Assembly (NCBI RefSeq): GCF_014237875.1
Contig: NZ_JACJVJ010000001.1
Span: 1,662,501 to 1,726,500, forward strand
DNA from: Parasphingopyxis marina
GTDB taxonomy: Bacteria > Pseudomonadota > Alphaproteobacteria > Sphingomonadales > Sphingomonadaceae
Direction: 5' to 3'
DNA length: 64,000 nucleotides
Position numbers and translations under genes: made by a program. Below the pieces are notes generated by a model. The model was given only the letters and a program-made list of their open reading frames with translations, was not told where the DNA came from and ran no database searches. Positions 49,098-55,930 of this stretch are shown piece by piece (the first letter of the stretch is position 1; every line of letters begins with the position of its first letter).

Positions 49098-49625
49098 GTG
49101 AAACGATCCAACGACTGGGGATTTCCGCGCTGGCGCGGCTATGGTTCGTCGCGCGAAGCGACGGAGGTGCGGCTCTGCGACCGCCATGGCTGCAGCGAGC
49201 CCGGAGACCGGCCTGCGCCGAAATCGCCGAATAGCCCCGAGCGCTGGTATTTCTGCGAGAAACACGCCGCCGAATATAACCGCAACTGGAACTATTTCGA
49301 AGGGCTGACCAAGGAGCAGCGCGAGGAGCGCGAGCGCGATGAACAGCGCAGTGCCGAGGGCTATACCGAATCCTCCCATTATGGCTGGGGTGGGCCCGGC
49401 GATGGCAGCCGCAGCGCCGACGAGATGCGCGCACTCGAGATATTCGAACTCGATCCTGACGCCGAATTCGACGCGGTCAAAAAGGCCTGGCGCCAGCTCG
49501 CCAAGGCAAATCATCCCGATGTGAAACCCGACGATGCCGAGGCGGCCAAACGCTTTGCGGCGGGGCAGGCGGCCTGGGAAGTGTTGCGCGCGGCCGAGGA
49601 ACGGCGCGAATGGAAGGGCGGCTAG
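49098..49625 (+). CDS. J-domain protein with N-terminal Cys/His module
   Basis: Co-chaperone-like protein of 175 residues. The C-terminal part has a J domain with the HPD motif in AKANHPDVKPDD near 141, preceded by ALEIFELDPDAEFDAVKKAWRQL. The N-terminal half carries a possible zinc site: VRLCDRHGC, then YFCEKHAAEYN, giving the CxxHxC...CxxH pattern near residues 28-64. The start is GTG 49098; a TTG at 49089 is another choice. Its last bases overlap the convergent sufE gene by four. It would act with DnaK. Confidence 0.85.
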   Translation: MKRSNDWGFPRWRGYGSSREATEVRLCDRHGCSEPGDRPAPKSPNSPERWYFCEKHAAEYNRNWNYFEGLTKEQREERERDEQRSAEGYTESSHYGWGGPGDGSRSADEMRALEIFELDPDAEFDAVKKAWRQLAKANHPDVKPDDAEAAKRFAAGQAAWEVLRAAEERREWKGG

Positions 49626-50044
49626 GCGTAGCGTGCAGCGGTTTCTCGGATCAGCGAAATCATGTTCGGGATACCCTGGGTCCGGTTCGAACTCAGCTGG
49701 TTCTTGAGGTCGAAGGGCGCGAGCGCGTCCCCTATATCCGTTTCGAGAATTTCTCCCGCCGACCGGTCCTGCACGGTTGTCAGTACGAGCGCGATAATAC
49801 CCTTGGTGATCGCTGCATTGCTGTCTGCCAGGAAATGCAGCCGGCCGTCTTCCTGCCGTGTCGGATAGACCCAGACTGCCGCCGAGCACCCCCGCACCAG
49901 CGTCGCATCGGTTTTGAGGGCATCGGGCATGTCTTCGAGCTGCCGCCCGAGATCGATCAGCAGGCGATAGCGATCGTCGGCTTCGAGAAAATCATATTCG
50001 TCGCGGATCGCGTCGAGCGATGTGGGCAATGTCATGCCGGTCAT
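49622..50044 (-). CDS. sufE: SufE family sulfur transfer protein
   Basis: 140-residue protein that accepts sulfur from the desulfurase SufS and passes it to SufB. The acceptor cysteine is Cys53 in TLVRGCSAAVWVYP, and other family blocks are LIDLGRQLEDMP and the C-terminal LSSNRTQGIPNMISLI. No sufS or sufBCD is in the window; two cysteine desulfurases at 30.3-32.6 kb are of the IscS/NifS type, so its partner is probably elsewhere. The start is MTGMTLP or three codons later. Confidence 0.92.
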   Translation of the reverse strand: MTGMTLPTSLDAIRDEYDFLEADDRYRLLIDLGRQLEDMPDALKTDATLVRGCSAAVWVYPTRQEDGRLHFLADSNAAITKGIIALVLTTVQDRSAGEILETDIGDALAPFDLKNQLSSNRTQGIPNMISLIRETAARYA

Positions 50045-50064
50045 TTAGGGGCTGGCCGGCCCGA

Positions 50065-50148
50065 CGTCACCCCGGCAAGTGCCGGGGCCCCTTCGGGTAG
50101 GAGTTTCGGGCCGATCCGAAGAGATTCCGGGGGGCAACCGGAATGACG
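50065..50148. repeat. Second interspersed-repeat-like element
   Basis: An 84-base stretch bounded by CGTCA and TGACG, with the pairs CCCCGG / CCGGAA near the ends and an inner GGCAAGTGCC palindrome. It resembles the class of short GC-rich intergenic repeats of sphingomonads. It differs from the repeat at 34970. Confidence 0.4.
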
Positions 50149-50179
50149 ATCCTGGTGTAGGTAGCGAGACGCGGGCGTC

Positions 50180-50422
50180 TTAGAGTTCGATTCCGGCGGC
50201 GATTGCTTCGAGCTTGCGGACGCGTTCCTTGAGGTCGGCGACCTCAATGCGCGAACCGGTGCTGGGTACCGTCACATCGCCGGCGGTGCCGGTCAATTGC
50301 TGGATTTCGAGCCGCTTGAGTTCGAGCCATCCCCGCCACCCGTTAAGGGCCGTCAGGCTGGCGATCGCGATGCCGATCAGTGCGGCCGCGGCGGTTGCCA
50401 ATGTCGCTATTTGGTCTTGCAT
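50180..50422 (-). CDS. Psp-cluster small membrane protein 5
   Basis: 80-residue last gene of the psp unit. A hydrophobic helix at about 10-27 (TAAAALIGIAIASLTALN) is followed by a linker and a C-terminal coiled segment RIEVADLKERVRKLEAIAAGIEL (58-80). The C-terminal part is a degenerate form of the ERIxxLExI motif shared by its neighbours. Function is unknown; the position and architecture suggest association with PspB/PspC. Confidence 0.7.
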   Translation of the reverse strand: MQDQIATLATAAAALIGIAIASLTALNGWRGWLELKRLEIQQLTGTAGDVTVPSTGSRIEVADLKERVRKLEAIAAGIEL

Positions 50423-50461
50423 GGCTTTACCTTCCCGTTCCTGAACCTTCTTTTCCCTAAC

Positions 50462-50731
50462 CTAATGCTGGCGTTCGTCGCGCAGCGCCTCGATTTCCTG
50501 TTCGAGCCGGTTGCTTTTGTCCGTTGCGATCCGTTCGAGCACGACGATGCGTTCCTTCAGACCCCGGATCTCTTCGCGCATCCGATCGGCATCGGGATCG
50601 CGGATCAGCCGCGTCTCGCCCTTGTCGTCGTCGAACACGCCGTGCTCGGCCTTGTATTTGGCCCTCAGCACGCCCGCGATGGCGGTAATCAGTACAATCG
50701 CCACGACCATCGAAAACGGGTTGTCGAACAT
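50462..50731 (-). CDS. Psp-cluster small coiled-coil membrane protein 4
   Basis: 89 residues. One membrane helix at about 6-22, a charged middle, and a C-terminal coiled coil with RIVVLERIATDK and LEQEIEALR (61-84). Four small proteins in this operon carry a closely matching version, and PspB has a variant in RIQALESI-like form. AGGTTCAGGAG lies before the ATG. It is probably a membrane-anchored partner in the Psp response; no known family name. Confidence 0.75.
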   Translation of the reverse strand: MFDNPFSMVVAIVLITAIAGVLRAKYKAEHGVFDDDKGETRLIRDPDADRMREEIRGLKERIVVLERIATDKSNRLEQEIEALRDERQH

Positions 50732-50763
50732 CTCCTGAACCTTTCTTCCCTGTTTCTGCCGCT

Positions 50764-51027
50764 CTAGTTGAGCGGTTTTTCCCTGAGGCCTTCAATCTCT
50801 TCCGACAATGTGGTCGAGCGATCGGTGAGGATGCGCTCCAGCGTCGCCACCCGCTGCTCGAGCCGTTCGGTCTTGGCGGCATATTGTGCCGCTTTCTCGG
50901 CCGTCATCGCCGCGTTGGCGTGAGCCTCTGCCTTGCGCCAGGCGAACCATTTGTTTCCGAAAATCCAGAAGGTGACGGCACAAATCGGGAGGGCGACGGT
51001 GATGAGCAGAATGGCAATCGTTTCCAT
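50764..51027 (-). CDS. Psp-cluster small coiled-coil membrane protein 3
   Basis: 87 residues with a membrane helix at about 4-24 (IAILLITVALPICAVTFWIF), a short aromatic-basic step WFAWRK, and a coiled coil ending in RVATLERILTDR and LSEEIEGLR (59-82). The layout matches PspB in size and order: N-terminal helix, then a leucine-repeat coil. It is one of five such genes downstream of pspC. Confidence 0.75.
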   Translation of the reverse strand: METIAILLITVALPICAVTFWIFGNKWFAWRKAEAHANAAMTAEKAAQYAAKTERLEQRVATLERILTDRSTTLSEEIEGLREKPLN

Positions 51028-51038
51028 GATCGAAACCC

Positions 51039-51368
51039 CTAGTTCGACTTGGAGCCACGGAGGCTCTCAATTTCCTGTTCGAGGACGTAACCACCGTCGG
51101 TCACGATCCGCTCGACATTGGCGAGCCGGTCCTTGATCGCGCCCAACTCGGCGCGCAGTTGGGCATTTTCCTGGCTCAGCAGCTTGATGCGTTCGGCCGC
51201 TTCCTGATCGGTCTTCGGATAGACGGCCTGTCCCCAGCTGCTTTCGAGCGGATAGCCGTTCTTGACGCGCAGCCAGGTTGTCACGACCCAGCCGGCGATA
51301 CCGAGGATGCCGATCACGCCGATAAGCGGGACGAGTGCGGAGATGGTTTCAATCTTGTCCGGATCCAT
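51039..51368 (-). CDS. Psp-cluster small coiled-coil membrane protein 2
   Basis: 109 residues, one helix at about 9-32 (ISALVPLIGVIGILGIAGWVV). The following KNGYPLESSWG stretch (36-46) is shared with the next gene at 51396 and marks the two as close paralogues. The coil carries RLANVERIVTDG and LEQEIESLR (81-104). AAGGAACG stands before the ATG. No enzyme motif is present, so an accessory or scaffold role is likely. Confidence 0.75.
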   Translation of the reverse strand: MDPDKIETISALVPLIGVIGILGIAGWVVTTWLRVKNGYPLESSWGQAVYPKTDQEAAERIKLLSQENAQLRAELGAIKDRLANVERIVTDGGYVLEQEIESLRGSKSN

Positions 51369-51395
51369 CGTCTTCGTTCCTTTCTTCTGGGCCGG

Positions 51396-51698
51396 CTATT
51401 CAGCCGGGCTGCGCAGATTCTCGATCTCGTCTGAGAGCCGTGCGCTCTTGTCGGTGGCGATCCGTTCCAGAACCGAGATCCGCTCTTCGAGCCTGCCGAT
51501 CTTGTCCTTCAATTCGCCATTTTCGTTCGAAAGCAGTTCGATCTTGCGATTGTTTTCCGGATCGTCGCGGTGGGTCGTACCGCCCCATTCGCCTTCCAGC
51601 GGATAGCCGTGCTTGGCGCGAATGGCCGTGGTGATGATCCAGCCGATCATGCTCATGCCGATGATCGCGAGTACAAATTGCGGGCCACCCCAACTCAT
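51396..51698 (-). CDS. Psp-cluster small coiled-coil membrane protein 1
   Basis: 100 residues, one helix at about 7-27 (QFVLAIIGMSMIGWIITTAI), the KHGYPLEGEWG element (29-39), and the coiled coil RISVLERIATDK with LSDEIENLR (73-96). It is the first of the five small genes after pspC. AGGGAGAAAT before the start is a good ribosome-binding site. The same motif terminates PspC in this operon. Confidence 0.75.
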   Translation of the reverse strand: MSWGGPQFVLAIIGMSMIGWIITTAIRAKHGYPLEGEWGGTTHRDDPENNRKIELLSNENGELKDKIGRLEERISVLERIATDKSARLSDEIENLRSPAE

Positions 51699-51729
51699 GA
51701 TATTTCTCCCTGAACCTTGTTTCTATTAT

Positions 51730-52107
51730 CTAGCGCAGCGCTTCGATCTCGTCGGCCAGGCGCTGGTTGCGGCTGGTGACCAGCAGCTCGACATCGGCGA
51801 GCCGGCGATCGACATCGCGAAAGCGCGAGCGGATCTCGTTGACCGAGCGGCGCGGGTTGGCGCGCGTGCCCTGCCAGAATTTCTCTTCTTCCTTGTTGTC
51901 GTAGAGGCCGAGCGGCTTTTTCGGCGCCAGCCAGCCGACCACGAAATAGAGCGGAATCAGCGGCGGAAAGGCGAAGATCGTCGTGAAAACAGCGCCGACG
52001 CGGACCCAGAGTACATCGATGCCGGTATAATCGGCGACACCCGAACAGACGCCCAGAAATTTCGCATTCTGCTTGTCGAGGTAGAATTTCGTCCGGCGGT
52101 CGTGCAT
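51730..52107 (-). CDS. pspC: Phage shock protein PspC
   Basis: Membrane regulator of the Psp response, 125 residues. The PspC domain comprises KFYLDKQNAKFLGVCSGVADY, then a helix at about 38-62. The C-terminal tail ends in RLADVELLVTSRNQRLADEIEALR-like coil (102-125), the motif found in the downstream small proteins. The ATG at 52107 has AGGAG eight bases upstream; ATGs at 52113 and 52128 are in frame. In E. coli PspC, together with PspB, draws PspA to the membrane and frees PspF. Confidence 0.9.
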   Translation of the reverse strand: MHDRRTKFYLDKQNAKFLGVCSGVADYTGIDVLWVRVGAVFTTIFAFPPLIPLYFVVGWLAPKKPLGLYDNKEEEKFWQGTRANPRRSVNEIRSRFRDVDRRLADVELLVTSRNQRLADEIEALR

Positions 52108-52137
52108 TTTCATAACTCCTGTTTTCACCCCTTGCCG

Positions 52138-52440
52138 TTACGAACGGCGGATCGGGGTGGCCTCTTCTTCGCTTTGCGTCAGCCGATCGCTCGGCAGCTG
52201 CTGTTCGGCAGTCAGATGCTGCCGGCCCCATTCCGGATTGTCGGCCGCGATGATCCGTTCGATCGTGTTCATCCGGTCATCGAGCCGCCGCCCCAGTTCG
52301 TAGAGCTCGTCCAGCAGGTCTTCGTCTTCGCGGCTGATCGTGCCGGCGCGTTTCCATTGCGTCGAATAGTGGAGGATCAACCAGGGAAGCCCGATGAAGA
52401 GCATCCCGACGACGCCGATGGGGACGAGGATATCTTCCAT
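52138..52440 (-). CDS. pspB: Phage shock protein PspB
   Basis: 100-residue single-helix membrane protein. The helix at about 6-24 (VPIGVVGMLFIGLPWLIL) is followed by HYSTQWKR, and a leucine-repeat coil LDELYELGRRLDDRMNTIERIIAADNPEW ends near residue 71, the standard PspB layout. The NPEW end is like the HPNW of E. coli PspB. The last 30 residues are polar. It is followed by pspC after a short gap and overlaps nothing. It partners PspC in sensing. Confidence 0.9.
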   Translation of the reverse strand: MEDILVPIGVVGMLFIGLPWLILHYSTQWKRAGTISREDEDLLDELYELGRRLDDRMNTIERIIAADNPEWGRQHLTAEQQLPSDRLTQSEEEATPIRRS

Positions 52441-52443
52441 GGG

Positions 52444-53133
52444 CTACGCCTCCTTCGCCGGATCGCCGGCCTTCTTGCCGCCGGCCTTCTTCATAGCGGC
52501 GAGTTCGGCTTCGATCTTGTCGCTGGTTTCGAGTTCGTTGATCTCTTCCTCGAGCGTCTTGGGCTGGCTGCCGAGGCTCAGCGCATCGGCACGGCCTTCG
52601 GCCATGTCGACGCGGCGTTCGAGCATCTCGAAGCGCTCAAAAGCATCCTGGACACGCTCGCCATCGTAGAGATCGCGAAGCTTGATGCGGTTTTCGGCGC
52701 TTTCGAGCCGGGCCGAGATGCTGGACTGGCGGCTGCGTGCTTCGCGCAGCTTGCCCTGGAGCTTGGAAATATCATGCTCGTAACCGGAAAGGGCTTCGTC
52801 CAGCACCGCGATCTCGCCGTTCAGCCGGTCGGCCATGTCGCCGGCCTTCTGCTTTTCGACGAGCGCCTGCTTGGCAAGGTCTTCGCGATCCTTGGAAAGC
52901 GCGAGTTCGGCTTTTTCCTTCCAGCCTTCCTGCAGCTGCTCAAGCTTGGTGATCGAGCGGCGCATTTCCTTCTGGTCCGCAATGGTGCGGGCAGCGGACG
53001 CGCGAACCTCGACCAGCGTTTCCTCCATCTCGAGGATGATCATGCGGACCATCTTGGCCGGATCTTCGGCCTTGTCGAGAATGTCGGTCACGTTGGCGGC
53101 AATGATGTCGCGAGTGCGGGAGAAAATTCCCAT
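52444..53133 (-). CDS. pspA: Phage shock protein PspA
   Basis: 229-residue peripheral membrane protein of the IM30/Vipp1 family. The protein is almost all coiled coil after the family N terminus MGIFSRTRDIIAANVTDILD, with MVRMIILEMEETLVEVR and an alanine- and lysine-rich tail. It binds stressed membrane and in the resting state holds PspF inactive. The start has AGGAG seven bases before the ATG. A strong hairpin lies between it and the preceding small peptide gene. Gene order and sigma-54 promoter confirm the role. Confidence 0.95.
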   Translation of the reverse strand: MGIFSRTRDIIAANVTDILDKAEDPAKMVRMIILEMEETLVEVRASAARTIADQKEMRRSITKLEQLQEGWKEKAELALSKDREDLAKQALVEKQKAGDMADRLNGEIAVLDEALSGYEHDISKLQGKLREARSRQSSISARLESAENRIKLRDLYDGERVQDAFERFEMLERRVDMAEGRADALSLGSQPKTLEEEINELETSDKIEAELAAMKKAGGKKAGDPAKEA

Positions 53134-53165
53134 GGTTGTACTCCTATCCCTCGAACAATTTTGTG

Positions 53166-53201
53166 GGCCGGGGAGGGGGAGGGGCAGCCGCCTCCCCGGC
53201 C
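53166..53201 (-). other. Perfect 11-bp hairpin between the leader peptide and pspA
   Basis: GGCCGGGGAGG at 53166-53176 is matched exactly by CCTCCCCGGCC at 53191-53201, with a 14-base loop. No T run follows on the minus strand, so it looks like a processing or attenuation element that could raise the first product over PspA. Confidence 0.55.
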
Positions 53202-53210
53202 AAGTTCCGG

Positions 53211-53387
53211 CTAGGCGAGCTGGCCGGTCATAACTGCGGTCGTTGCATATTGAGTTTGCAGCTGAACCGGCTGGGCCGTGTCGCTGCCCTCGATCGGGCC
53301 GACCGCTCCCAGGATGCAGGCGCTGCTGAGAACCAGAGCGGCGACGGCGGCGATGACATTCTGGTGAAGGGCGATGTTGTTGGTCAT
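53211..53387 (-). CDS. Short exported or membrane peptide, first gene of the psp operon
   Basis: 58-residue product. Polar N terminus, then the hydrophobic stretch VIAAVAALVLSSACILGAVG (11-30), with Cys24 that could be a weak lipobox (LSSAC), and a polar tail. An AGGAG three to seven bases before the ATG makes the start convincing. It lies directly downstream of the sigma-54 promoter, before pspA. I do not recognise a family; it may be a small secreted or anchored peptide of the Psp response. Confidence 0.65.
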   Translation of the reverse strand: MTNNIALHQNVIAAVAALVLSSACILGAVGPIEGSDTAQPVQLQTQYATTAVMTGQLA

Positions 53388-53477
53388 TTTCGGTCTCCTG
53401 AACCTTGGCCTTATCCTGATGCCCTTGCGGGCTGCGAAACTTGGTGCGATCCTTTGATCGTTCACAGCCCATTCATT

Positions 53478-53492
53478 GCATCGAGCGTGCCA
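53478..53492 (-). promoter_or_regulatory. Sigma-54 promoter of the psp operon
   Basis: On the minus strand the sequence reads TGGCACGCTCGATGC, with GG at -24 and GC at -12 at the right distance of ten bases between them; the consensus is TGGCAC-N5-TTGC, so only one base differs. Transcription would start near 53466, about 79 bases before the small peptide gene. PspF, the cognate activator, is encoded next door. Confidence 0.88.
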
Positions 53493-53511
53493 GTTTTTGA
53501 ATATATAGCAA

Positions 53512-53524
53512 AAACAATGCGTTA
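53512..53524. promoter_or_regulatory. IHF-like site upstream of the psp promoter
   Basis: AAACAATGCGTTA matches the IHF consensus WATCAA-N4-TTR at all but one specified base. It lies between the sigma-54 promoter and the palindrome at 53531, where bending would be needed for activator contact, inside an A+T-rich stretch. Confidence 0.45.
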
Positions 53525-53530
53525 GCGAAA

Positions 53531-53542
53531 TTTTCCGGAAAA
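53531..53542. promoter_or_regulatory. Perfect palindrome, candidate PspF enhancer site
   Basis: TTTTCCGGAAAA is a perfect 12-bp palindrome centred about 70 bases upstream of the predicted psp start, so it is placed like an enhancer for PspF. A further half site GGAAAA occurs near 53571. The binding specificity of this PspF is not known. Confidence 0.4.
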
Positions 53543-53593
53543 AACGCACGGTGCATATTGCCAGAATTTGGGAAAATATCCTAAAAGTTGGAA

Positions 53594-54601
53594 ATGGAAC
53601 GGGAATCGCAATTCGTCGGAGAATCAGGCGCCTTTCTCGACGCTGTCGAGCAGGCCAGCCGCGCCGCGCCGCTGGACAGGCCGGTGCTCGTCATCGGCGA
53701 GCGGGGCACGGGCAAGGAGTTGATAGCCGAACGGCTTCACCGGTTGAGCCAGCGCTGGGAGGGGCCACTCATCACCCTCAACTGTGCGGCGCTTCCCGAA
53801 ACGCTGATCGAAGCCGAACTGTTCGGACACGAGGCCGGCGCCTTTACCGGCGCGACGCGCGCGCGGGCCGGTGCGTTCGAGGAAGCCGATAACGGTACGC
53901 TGTTCCTCGACGAACTGGCGACGCTGTCCGCCGCCGCCCAGGAACGCCTGCTCCGCGCCGTCGAATATGGCCAGGTCAGCCGCATCGGTTCGAACCGGCC
54001 GATACGTGTCGATGTTCGTATCGTCGCCGCCACCAATGAAAATCTGCCCGATCTTGTCGAGCGCAACAAATTTCGCGCCGACCTGCTTGATCGTCTGTCG
54101 TTCGAGGTCGTGACCCTGCCGCCTCTGCGCGTGCGGGAAGGGGATATCCTGATCCTCGCCGACTATTTCGGGCGGCGAATGGCGGTGGAGCTCGACTGGC
54201 CCGGCTGGCAGGGCTTTGGCGATAATGCCGTGAAGGCGCTGCTCACACATGACTGGCCGGGCAATGTTCGCGAACTCCGTAATGTGGTGGAACGCGCCAT
54301 CTACCGCTGGACCGCGCCCGGCGAGCCGGTCGACACGATCCAGCTCGACCCGTTCGACTCTCCTTGGCAGATGCCGGCCACGACGGCGGCACCGACAGGC
54401 GATACGGCGGCCGAAGCCGCGCCTGCTGCTCCGCGGAGGGTCGTTTCGGATTTCAAGGCGGCGGTCGAAAGCTATGAGCGCGAGATCCTGGAGGCTGCGC
54501 TCGAACGCGCGCGGTATAACCAGCGGCAGACGGCCAAGGCGCTGGGCCTCAGTTACGATCAACTGCGGCACGCGCTTAAGCGGCACGACATGATCGGCTG
54601 A
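53594..54601 (+). CDS. pspF: Psp operon transcriptional activator PspF
   Basis: 335-residue sigma-54 activator with no N-terminal receiver, like E. coli PspF. The AAA+ domain has Walker A GERGTGKE near residue 34-41, the sigma-54-contacting GAFTGAT near 82, Walker B TLFLDELA and the arginine region. A linker rich in Ala, Pro and Thr (about 250-285) leads to a Fis-type helix-turn-helix NQRQTAKALGLSYDQLRHALKRH. PspA binds and inhibits this type of protein. A TTG two codons upstream is also possible; ATG 53594 is preferred. Divergent from the psp operon. Confidence 0.94.
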   Translation: MERESQFVGESGAFLDAVEQASRAAPLDRPVLVIGERGTGKELIAERLHRLSQRWEGPLITLNCAALPETLIEAELFGHEAGAFTGATRARAGAFEEADNGTLFLDELATLSAAAQERLLRAVEYGQVSRIGSNRPIRVDVRIVAATNENLPDLVERNKFRADLLDRLSFEVVTLPPLRVREGDILILADYFGRRMAVELDWPGWQGFGDNAVKALLTHDWPGNVRELRNVVERAIYRWTAPGEPVDTIQLDPFDSPWQMPATTAAPTGDTAAEAAPAAPRRVVSDFKAAVESYEREILEAALERARYNQRQTAKALGLSYDQLRHALKRHDMIG

Positions 54602-54654: not shown

Positions 54655-55221
54655 ATGCGTGGACCGACTGTGTTTCTCTCTGTTGCCGCCAGTTTGGGCC
54701 TGGCAAGCGCCGCGCCGGCGGCGATCACCGTTTTCGGCAACAGCAATGCGCGCAGCTGCTACGAGGCGGCCCGTGCCGAACGAACCGGGCCAACGCATAT
54801 ACGGCATTGCACCCGGGCGCTCGAAGACCGCACATTGGCGAGCAATGATCGTGTGGCGACCTATGTTAATCGCGGCATATTGCACGTCTATAACGGCGAT
54901 TTCGAGAGCGGCATCGCCGATTATGACCGGGCGATCGCCCTCGATGCGAGCGAACCCGATGCCTATCTCAACAAGGCGCTCGCGCTTCTGCACAACCAGA
55001 ATGACCTGCCGCAGATTATTTCGCTGCTGACGACCGCACTCGAATTTGGCACGCGTGAGCCCGCACTCGCCTATTACGGCCGCGGCCTTGCCTATGAACT
55101 GAGCGGCGATATTCCATCGGCCTATTATGACATTCAGCGCGCCGTCGAAACCGATCCCGGTTGGGAGCTTCCGGCCCGGGAATTGACGCGTTTCCGAGTC
55201 GTGGGCGGCGAAGACAGCTGA
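54655..55221 (+). CDS. Exported tetratricopeptide-repeat protein A
   Basis: 188-residue protein with a signal peptide (cleavage after APAAI or so) and then two or three TPR-like repeats (ATYVNRGILHVYNGDFESGIADYDRAIALDAS, AYYGRGLAYELSGDIPSAYYDIQRAVETDP). The region SNARSCYEAA near residue 31 has a conserved cysteine pair with THIRHCTRAL. A small hairpin CTCCC/GGGAG at 54633-54647 overlaps the ribosome-binding site, which may limit translation. It is a paralogue of the next gene. Function unknown. Confidence 0.8.
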   Translation: MRGPTVFLSVAASLGLASAAPAAITVFGNSNARSCYEAARAERTGPTHIRHCTRALEDRTLASNDRVATYVNRGILHVYNGDFESGIADYDRAIALDASEPDAYLNKALALLHNQNDLPQIISLLTTALEFGTREPALAYYGRGLAYELSGDIPSAYYDIQRAVETDPGWELPARELTRFRVVGGEDS

Positions 55222-55366: not shown

Positions 55367-55930
55367 ATGAAGACATGCACCGGAATTGCGGCAGCGGCGA
55401 TCGCGACCGCGCTGGCCGCCTCGGCCGCCCAGAGCGGCATCATGGTGGCCGGCAATAGCTCTGCGCGTATCTGTTACGCGGCGGCGGCGCGCCAGTCGGA
55501 CAATCGCGTAGACCTGCGGCCCTGCAGCCTGGCGCTTGATCACGACGCGCTGACGACGCGCGATCGCGTCGCGACGCTGGTCAATCGCGGTATCATCTAT
55601 TTCCACCGCGCCGATTGGGACCAGGCGCTCGCGGATTTCGATGCCGCGCTGGCGATCGACAACAATCAGCCCGAAGCGATGTTGAACAAGGCGCTCACCC
55701 TGCTGCGCCGGGATCGCTCGGGCGAGAACGCCATTCCCTATTTCACCCGTGCGCTGGAACTGGGCACGGAAGCGCCGGCGGTTGCGCATTATGGCCGCGG
55801 ACTCGCGCACCAGCTCGATGGCGATCTGACCGACGCCTATATCGATATTCGCCGTGCGTCCGATCTCGATCCGGAATGGGATGCACCGCGCAACGATCTA
55901 TCCAACTTCATCGTCCAACCCGTCGGCTGA
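55367..55930 (+). CDS. Exported tetratricopeptide-repeat protein B
   Basis: 187-residue paralogue of the preceding gene, with the same signal peptide style and blocks: SSARICYAAA, RPCSLALDHDALTTRDRVATLVNRGIIYFHRADWDQALADFD-like repeats and AHYGRGLAHQLDGDLTDAYIDIRRASDLDP. The two shared cysteines probably form a disulfide in the periplasm. Tandem duplication downstream of pspF is evident. A terminator-like stem follows its stop. Confidence 0.82.
   Translation: MKTCTGIAAAAIATALAASAAQSGIMVAGNSSARICYAAAARQSDNRVDLRPCSLALDHDALTTRDRVATLVNRGIIYFHRADWDQALADFDAALAIDNNQPEAMLNKALTLLRRDRSGENAIPYFTRALELGTEAPAVAHYGRGLAHQLDGDLTDAYIDIRRASDLDPEWDAPRNDLSNFIVQPVG

Follow-up and report, generated by a model that had tools for sequence, protein, structure and literature searches.

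The Psp system and an array of small zipper proteins

How PspB and PspC relay a signal of membrane damage to PspA is still debated. In Escherichia coli, the psp operon encodes PspB and PspC in one copy each. A larger version of this operon is described here from Parasphingopyxis marina, in a 64,000-nucleotide stretch of contig NZ_JACJVJ010000001.1 (positions 1,662,501 to 1,726,500, forward strand), which is called the window and to which coordinates refer unless another identifier is given. Behind pspA, pspB and pspC, the window carries five further small genes, s1 to s5, together termed the array. Genes of this type accompany pspC throughout the sampled Sphingomonadaceae, and the zippers of s1–s4 were shown by profile comparison to be related to the PspC tail and to PspB beyond what coil periodicity produces.

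The E. coli proteins provide the closest functional precedent. According to the parts of PMC3068692 used here, mutants of the PspC zipper do not bind PspA and fall short of full psp induction, PspB contacts ArcB through its zipper, PspB–PspC binding is independent of the PspB zipper, and the C-terminus of PspC may, as discussed there, switch from one side of the membrane to the other. In the on-state, the C-terminal cytoplasmic domain of PspC binds PspA (PMC5596341, excerpt). Among comparative studies, the consulted text of Ravi et al. (2024; PMC11237479) describes fusions of PspC with a divergent PspB at the C-terminus and mentions, in one clause with one accession, PspB duplicates in the psp operon. 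Like the array, these duplicates are extra genes of a psp operon; the clause says nothing of copy numbers or classes, nor of a motif or a mechanism. The original prediction that no such set had been described was therefore too strong. A phyletic survey of 2022 (PMC9239133) reports multiple PspA and PspC, and the sections at hand mention no such arrays. Beyond the clause in PMC11237479, no earlier description of the set, its classes or its motif was found in the open-licence literature, which lacks most subscription papers. PspD and PspG of E. coli are small proteins like those of the array and belong to the PspF regulon; the R-h-x-x-h-E zipper motif discussed below was not found in PspD of E. 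coli K-12.

The P. marina locus contains the following features, with family matches given as E values:

51396–51698, minus strand: s1, 100 amino acids; membrane helix, KHGYPLE linker, zipper
51039–51368, minus strand: s2, 109 amino acids; membrane helix, KNGYPLE linker, zipper
50764–51027, minus strand: s3, 87 amino acids; membrane helix, AEKAAQYA linker, zipper; the array member closest to PspB
50462–50731, minus strand: s4, 89 amino acids; the core class, membrane helix and zipper
50180–50422, minus strand: s5, 80 amino acids; the final gene, membrane helix and ..RIEVADLKERVRKLEAIAAGIEL
51730–52113, minus strand: pspC, with C-terminal zipper R-L-A-D-V-E-L-L-V-T-S...L..EIEALR (TIGR02978, 2.6e-33)
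52138–52440, minus strand: pspB, with zipper motif R-M-N-T-I-E (TIGR02976, 1.6e-21)
52444–53133, minus strand: pspA (TIGR02977, 4.3e-83)
53211–53387, minus strand: P0009, the small first gene of the operon, 58 amino acids, one hydrophobic segment
53477–53492, minus strand: sigma-54 (-24/-12)-like site TGGCACGCTCGATGCA, upstream of the operon
53588–54601, plus strand: pspF, sigma-54 activator, divergent from the operon (TIGR02974, 2.1e-144, above cut-off)

PspF, PspA, PspB and PspC of the window all exceed the curated NCBIfam cut-offs. The start of pspC was set at 52113, which has a ribosome-binding site ahead of it, instead of the upstream GTG in the list of open reading frames (ORFs).

Conservation of the array in the Sphingomonadaceae

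Loci for comparison were picked by PspC and not by the array; 60 genomes, that of P. marina included, were searched and 54 matched. Full-length PspC was present in 34 of the 36 sampled Sphingomonadaceae genomes, G003 giving a partial match only and G026 none. All 34 of these loci, where absence had been named in the original prediction as one result that would speak against it, contained array genes, from one to eight per locus with a median of five and a total of 149. A Sphingomonadaceae genome examined later, G293, has pspB, pspC and s5 only (B-C-s5). No s2-type match was obtained in G003, G026 or G290, which have no full-length PspC, in a search that had no positive control and was likewise blank for the PspC-bearing G293.

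Assigned by best-scoring class, s4 occurs in all 34 loci, s5 in 28, s3 in 25, s1 and s2 in 24 each and s6 in six; an s5-type gene is thus absent from six of the 34. Gene order is largely fixed, with s1 before s2 in 21/21 loci, s4 before s5 in 28/28 and s2 before s4 in 23/24. The position of s3 varies (after s1 in 14/21, after s2 in 12/21). The array classes were recovered in a tree of 165 rows, which was used for classes only because it has few columns (108) and few strongly supported inner branches (23 of 162). Since the tree and the gene order show classes common across genera, the arrays were rejected as mere recent local duplications for s1–s5; local duplications are present on top of the shared classes.

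Relatives of s1 are encoded in 386 stretches of named genomes, and the 80 best of these are from sphingomonads or unresolved Alphaproteobacteria. In these 80 loci plus the window, a sample biased by having been found with s1, the commonest layout was B-C-s1-s2-s3-s4-s5 (28 of 81). Arrays or operons may be cut in L063 and L066, which are located at the ends of contigs. At the other extreme, two of the 34 family loci (L039 and L084) have a single array gene, of the s4 class. All six pspABC primers published for Zymomonas mobilis have exact matches in the L039 genome, and no report of its array gene was found in the open-licence literature. In Z. mobilis, pspABC was found to be raised under ethanol stress (PMC3495753, excerpt).

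Some loci show a second PspC match adjoining pspC (B-C-C patterns); the one at L230:1040-1276 is a short gene that lacks a zipper tail.

Relation of the zippers to PspC and PspB

Profiles of the coil halves of the proteins were compared, and the control was a set of 60 shuffles in which columns changed places only within their own heptad register. The matches of s1–s4 to the PspC tail had E values of 8.3e-8 to 6.6e-6 (about 1e-7 for s1 and s2), and those to PspB of 6.9e-7 to 3.0e-5. In each of these eight comparisons, 0/60 shuffles reached the score, the narrowest margin being that of s4 with PspC (29.2 against a best shuffle of 27.0). The proposed relation of the coils to PspC and PspB was thereby borne out for s1–s4 and not for s5, whose scores were reached by 14/60 shuffles with PspC and 4/60 with PspB. 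No shuffle of 60 reached the score of s5 with s4; s5 is a distinct class, tied to PspB and PspC through s4 only.

The description of the array members as PspB-like did not hold for the whole proteins. None of s1–s5 reached the cut-off of any Pfam or NCBIfam family. The best PspB match was that of s3 (TIGR02976, 2.5e-6, 27.7 bits against a cut-off of 51.7; PF06667, 18.1 bits against 25.6), s1 scored 15.3 bits with TIGR02976, and s2, s4 and s5 were absent from the PspB matches. In the PspB alignment (A5), P, H and Y are invariant and a later P nearly so. An HY pair near the membrane helix occurs in 33/34 PspB proteins, the longer P..HY after the helix in 32/34 and an NPxW-type end in 27/34, whereas all three are found in 0/149 array proteins. 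What the array shares with PspB is the single N-terminal helix, the R-h-x-x-h-E zipper and the operon. With the PspC tail it shares the zipper, followed by a T[SD] turn and an L..EI..LR end; in contrast to PspC, the array proteins carry a single membrane helix ahead of the zipper, and no match to the PspC domain (PF04024) was found in s1–s5 at E up to 1. Weak matches of array proteins to ZapB, bZIP, holin and other families were set aside as generic coil or transmembrane noise. A search of solved structures gave no match for the PspB or PspC profile at E up to 0.1 and generic zippers only for s1 (E 0.07–1).

The common element of these zippers is the motif R-h-x-x-h-E. Its relaxed form, R[ILVMAT]xx[LIVM]E, is present in 217/217 family proteins (34 PspB, 34 PspC and 121 + 28 array proteins), and R[ILVM]xx[LIVM]E in 215/217, against 7.5% after register shuffles. 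The Arg falls at heptad position g and the Glu at the following e. When 121 array proteins were centred on the core motif, the a residues were N, A, I, L or V, and those at d, as far as the motif, were predominantly L. Within the order but outside the family, the relaxed motif was found in 15/15 PspB, 13/16 PspC and 2/2 linked array genes. E. coli K-12 PspB has the motif as RIQALE, and PspC has RLREME, with Met at d. In the available text of PMC3653964, R-hxxhE is a determinant of parallel trimers, with exceptions and not exclusive to trimers, and the list of residues defined there for d is without Met.

Genes and protein architecture

Five consecutive minus-strand genes of 80–109 amino acids behind pspA-pspB-pspC, each with one strongly hydrophobic N-terminal stretch, were found as first described. 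So was the coil motif in four of the five: ...ERI.TD....L..EIE.LR is present in s1–s4, and s5 retains the zipper part only. That s1–s5 behave as real genes was confirmed. Thirty-five orthologue comparisons within the genus, with L062 left out, gave ratios of nonsynonymous to synonymous substitution rates (dN/dS) of about 0.06–0.37, dS often being near saturation, which points to purifying selection. A chance origin is unlikely because the genes are conserved family-wide and, for s1–s4, because of the heptad-register shuffles. Start codons were chosen by script, which also re-trimmed several over-long ORFs.

By hydropathy, a transmembrane segment is present in 147/149 array proteins, and Lys and Arg are commoner after it in 145 of these 147 and equal in two. 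The array proteins are accordingly predicted to have one membrane helix with the N-terminus out and the C-terminus in, which would place the zipper in the cytoplasm. An AlphaFold2 model of s1 has helices at residues 6–30 and 47–96 with a modest mean predicted local distance difference test (pLDDT) score of 70.6; that of PspC, of low confidence (pLDDT 61.8), has a tail helix at 91–113, a break and a helix at 117–126. The coil halves of s1–s4 are mutually related, all at 1e-15 or better. Among the front halves of the ten s1–s5 pairs, clear relation was found only for s1–s2 (E 7.1e-17) and s1–s4 (3.6e-7), and weak relation for s2–s4 (6.3e-4). The pattern of the array is a constant zipper with a class-specific front half.

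The proteins s1 and s2 have in common a strongly conserved juxtamembrane stretch with invariant residues, K-H/N-G-Y-P-L-E..W, which is likely to be a partner or lipid contact. In six loci (L071, L073, L074, L075, L077 and L082), several array proteins of the same locus have a similar extra tail (..GVPL..), as if the tails had been copied between neighbouring genes.

Operon-like layout and neighbouring genes

The genes s1–s5 look like an operon-like continuation of pspA-pspB-pspC on one strand, and they may be co-transcribed, as the original prediction supposed. The gaps from pspC through the array in the 34 family loci have a median of 22 nucleotides (n = 149), and 138/149 are 50 nucleotides or less. 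No minus-strand terminator-like site was found in 49600–53700, where the six such sites all lie on the other strand. Of 49 loci with an identified pspA, 47 have a sigma-54-like site upstream of that gene (the exceptions are L051 and L065), against 0.8% by chance with shuffled bases. In the window, two sigma-54-like matches compare with 0.9 expected, which alone is not significant; the weight of the site comes from its place and its conservation across loci.

Between this site and pspA sits P0009, and a P0009-like gene occurs in 9/34 family loci, the window included, in a count that skipped loci without a recognized pspA ORF. In Zymomonas, the gene beside pspA (ZMO1062) is labelled hypothetical or pspD in published work. 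Past s5, the next ORF (49622–50044) is presumably SufE-like. Beside pspF lie two look-alike ORFs (54655–55221 and 55367–55930) with a signal-peptide-like start and, by eye, tetratricopeptide-repeat-like text. Additional PspC-domain matches occur elsewhere in the genome (G000:C1:390727-390900 and 1116415-1116567).

Relatives outside the family

Large genome searches scored the best 15–18 candidates per genome, and copy numbers from these were not used. The s4 profile matched 267 of 296 genomes of the order. In the class it matched 7 of 289, four of them Sphingomonadaceae, and in the phylum 43 of 349, namely 15 Sphingomonadaceae, two others of the same order, four of the same class and 22 of other classes, three of the latter being weak (E 3e-4 to 9e-4). 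Among 16 loci fetched from 19 PspC-matching genomes of other families in the order, two (L041 and L042) have a linked array gene. Placement relative to pspC covered ten other-family genomes, with G088 and G080 unplaced; the matches of G057, G041, G045, G036, G039 and G049 lie away from pspC, as does one each in G048 and G058. The copies in G048 and G058 directly follow an ORF that we take to be rpoD-like. Most of the relatives checked outside the family occur singly or in pairs without linkage to psp, and two copies adjoin each other in G080, G499 and G817. The s4-related genes of other families and classes (L088–L097 and L213–L229) encode single-helix zipper proteins and mostly stand beside varied genes. 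This distribution would be most simply explained if the sphingomonad lineage recruited an old, unlinked gene to its psp operon and multiplied it there.

Possible roles of the array

With slightly less than even confidence, we propose that the psp operon has been extended in sphingomonads by these five genes, their products being zipper-bearing anchors that form mixed coils and tune PspA docking. Under membrane stress, PspF and sigma-54 would make the whole set. PspC, PspB and the array proteins would then assemble into mixed parallel coils, probably trimers, because all members have one interhelical R(g)-E(e') code in common. Since the PspC zipper of E. coli is needed for PspC–PspA contact, the array would act on PspA docking, as extra membrane anchors for this contact or as competitors for it, and would thereby set the amount and place of membrane-held PspA. 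The differing front halves would give each anchor a membrane site or input of its own. Separately considered, mixed coils with PspB and PspC are plausible from the sequences, and a change of, or competition for, PspA docking is the most likely effect of reusing one zipper on several anchors. In a bolder form, up to eight anchored partners would join PspB and the tail of PspC in a combinatorial zipper code: mixed trimers of parallel helices would assemble, and their make-up would determine both the docking place of PspA and the stress that meets with a response. This form is unlikely as a whole.

Several observations weigh against the proposal. The direct match of the PspC tail to PspB is weak, 4/60 shuffles reaching its score. 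The R-h-x-x-h-E motif alone is not specific, because PspA matches it as well, once in the window and twice in relaxed form in E. coli. Asn at an a position, which favours dimers, is frequent in s1 and s2. A sigma-70-like site (51725–51697, minus strand), at chance level with one found against 1.2 expected, lies right before s1, so the array may have a promoter of its own. Finally, the 22 upstream regions of unlinked relatives that were searched contain no good sigma-54 site (best, 9/11 consensus positions), which gives no support to these relatives as members of a PspF regulon and suggests a family role without need of PspF.

The array proteins might instead be input adaptors, each coupling a distinct partner or stress to PspC through its own membrane or juxtamembrane part, PspA docking not being their job. 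The class-specific front halves beside the common coils of s1–s4, the invariant juxtamembrane residues of s1 and s2 and the contact of the E. coli PspB zipper with ArcB (PMC3068692, in the part cited) all fit this idea. It is nevertheless doubtful: no partner candidates were found, and one s4-class gene suffices in L039, whose genome is the one matching the Z. mobilis primers, and in L084.

A negative feedback sponge, by which a late-induced array would titrate the PspC tail or PspB and so shut the response down or silence PspC, is improbable. The placement of the array genes after pspC and the zipper common to s1–s4 would suit such a role, as would the title of a 2016 Yersinia paper, which speaks of the response being silenced by PspB–PspC cytoplasmic interactions; a sponge, however, would not require distinct, ordered classes kept across the family.

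Similarly improbable are effectors outside signalling, that is, membrane-stabilizing or scaffold proteins co-transcribed with psp in the manner of PspD and PspG, with coils that associate only with themselves. Around unlinked relatives in other families and classes, 17/17 stretches of 6–7 kb (L213–L229) have no PspA, PspB, PspC or PspF match, so an array-type protein can act without adjoining PspABC. Against this stand the specific relation of the s1–s4 zippers to the PspC tail and PspB beyond coil periodicity and the presence of the array in every sampled psp locus of the family.

It is scarcely credible that the coils arose by chance or convergence and are tied to Psp proteins neither by descent nor by function: coils do match coils easily, as the generic zippers at E 0.07–1 illustrate, and s5 is not separable from shuffles, but none of the 60 register-preserving shuffles reached the s1–s4 scores, the motif is present in 217/217 proteins and synteny is kept.

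Significance

The array represents a new and large variation on the Psp system, and its proposed pairing code can be tested. It does not amount to a new kind of system, because PspB duplicates in psp operons are already noted in the 2024 survey. Our preferred reading, that of zipper-bearing anchors tuning PspA docking, suggests an expanded and barely described set of docking partners. The multiplication of the zipper into one to eight anchored proteins with a strict Arg/Glu pair supplies naturally occurring variants and allows the role of the zipper to be tested by mutating two residues, and the L039 locus, with its single array gene and its match to the Z. mobilis primers, offers a simple, ethanol-responsive model. 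If the pairing code proves true, the same motif in PspB and PspC of E. coli would mark a switch element that is general to the Psp response and has been overlooked.

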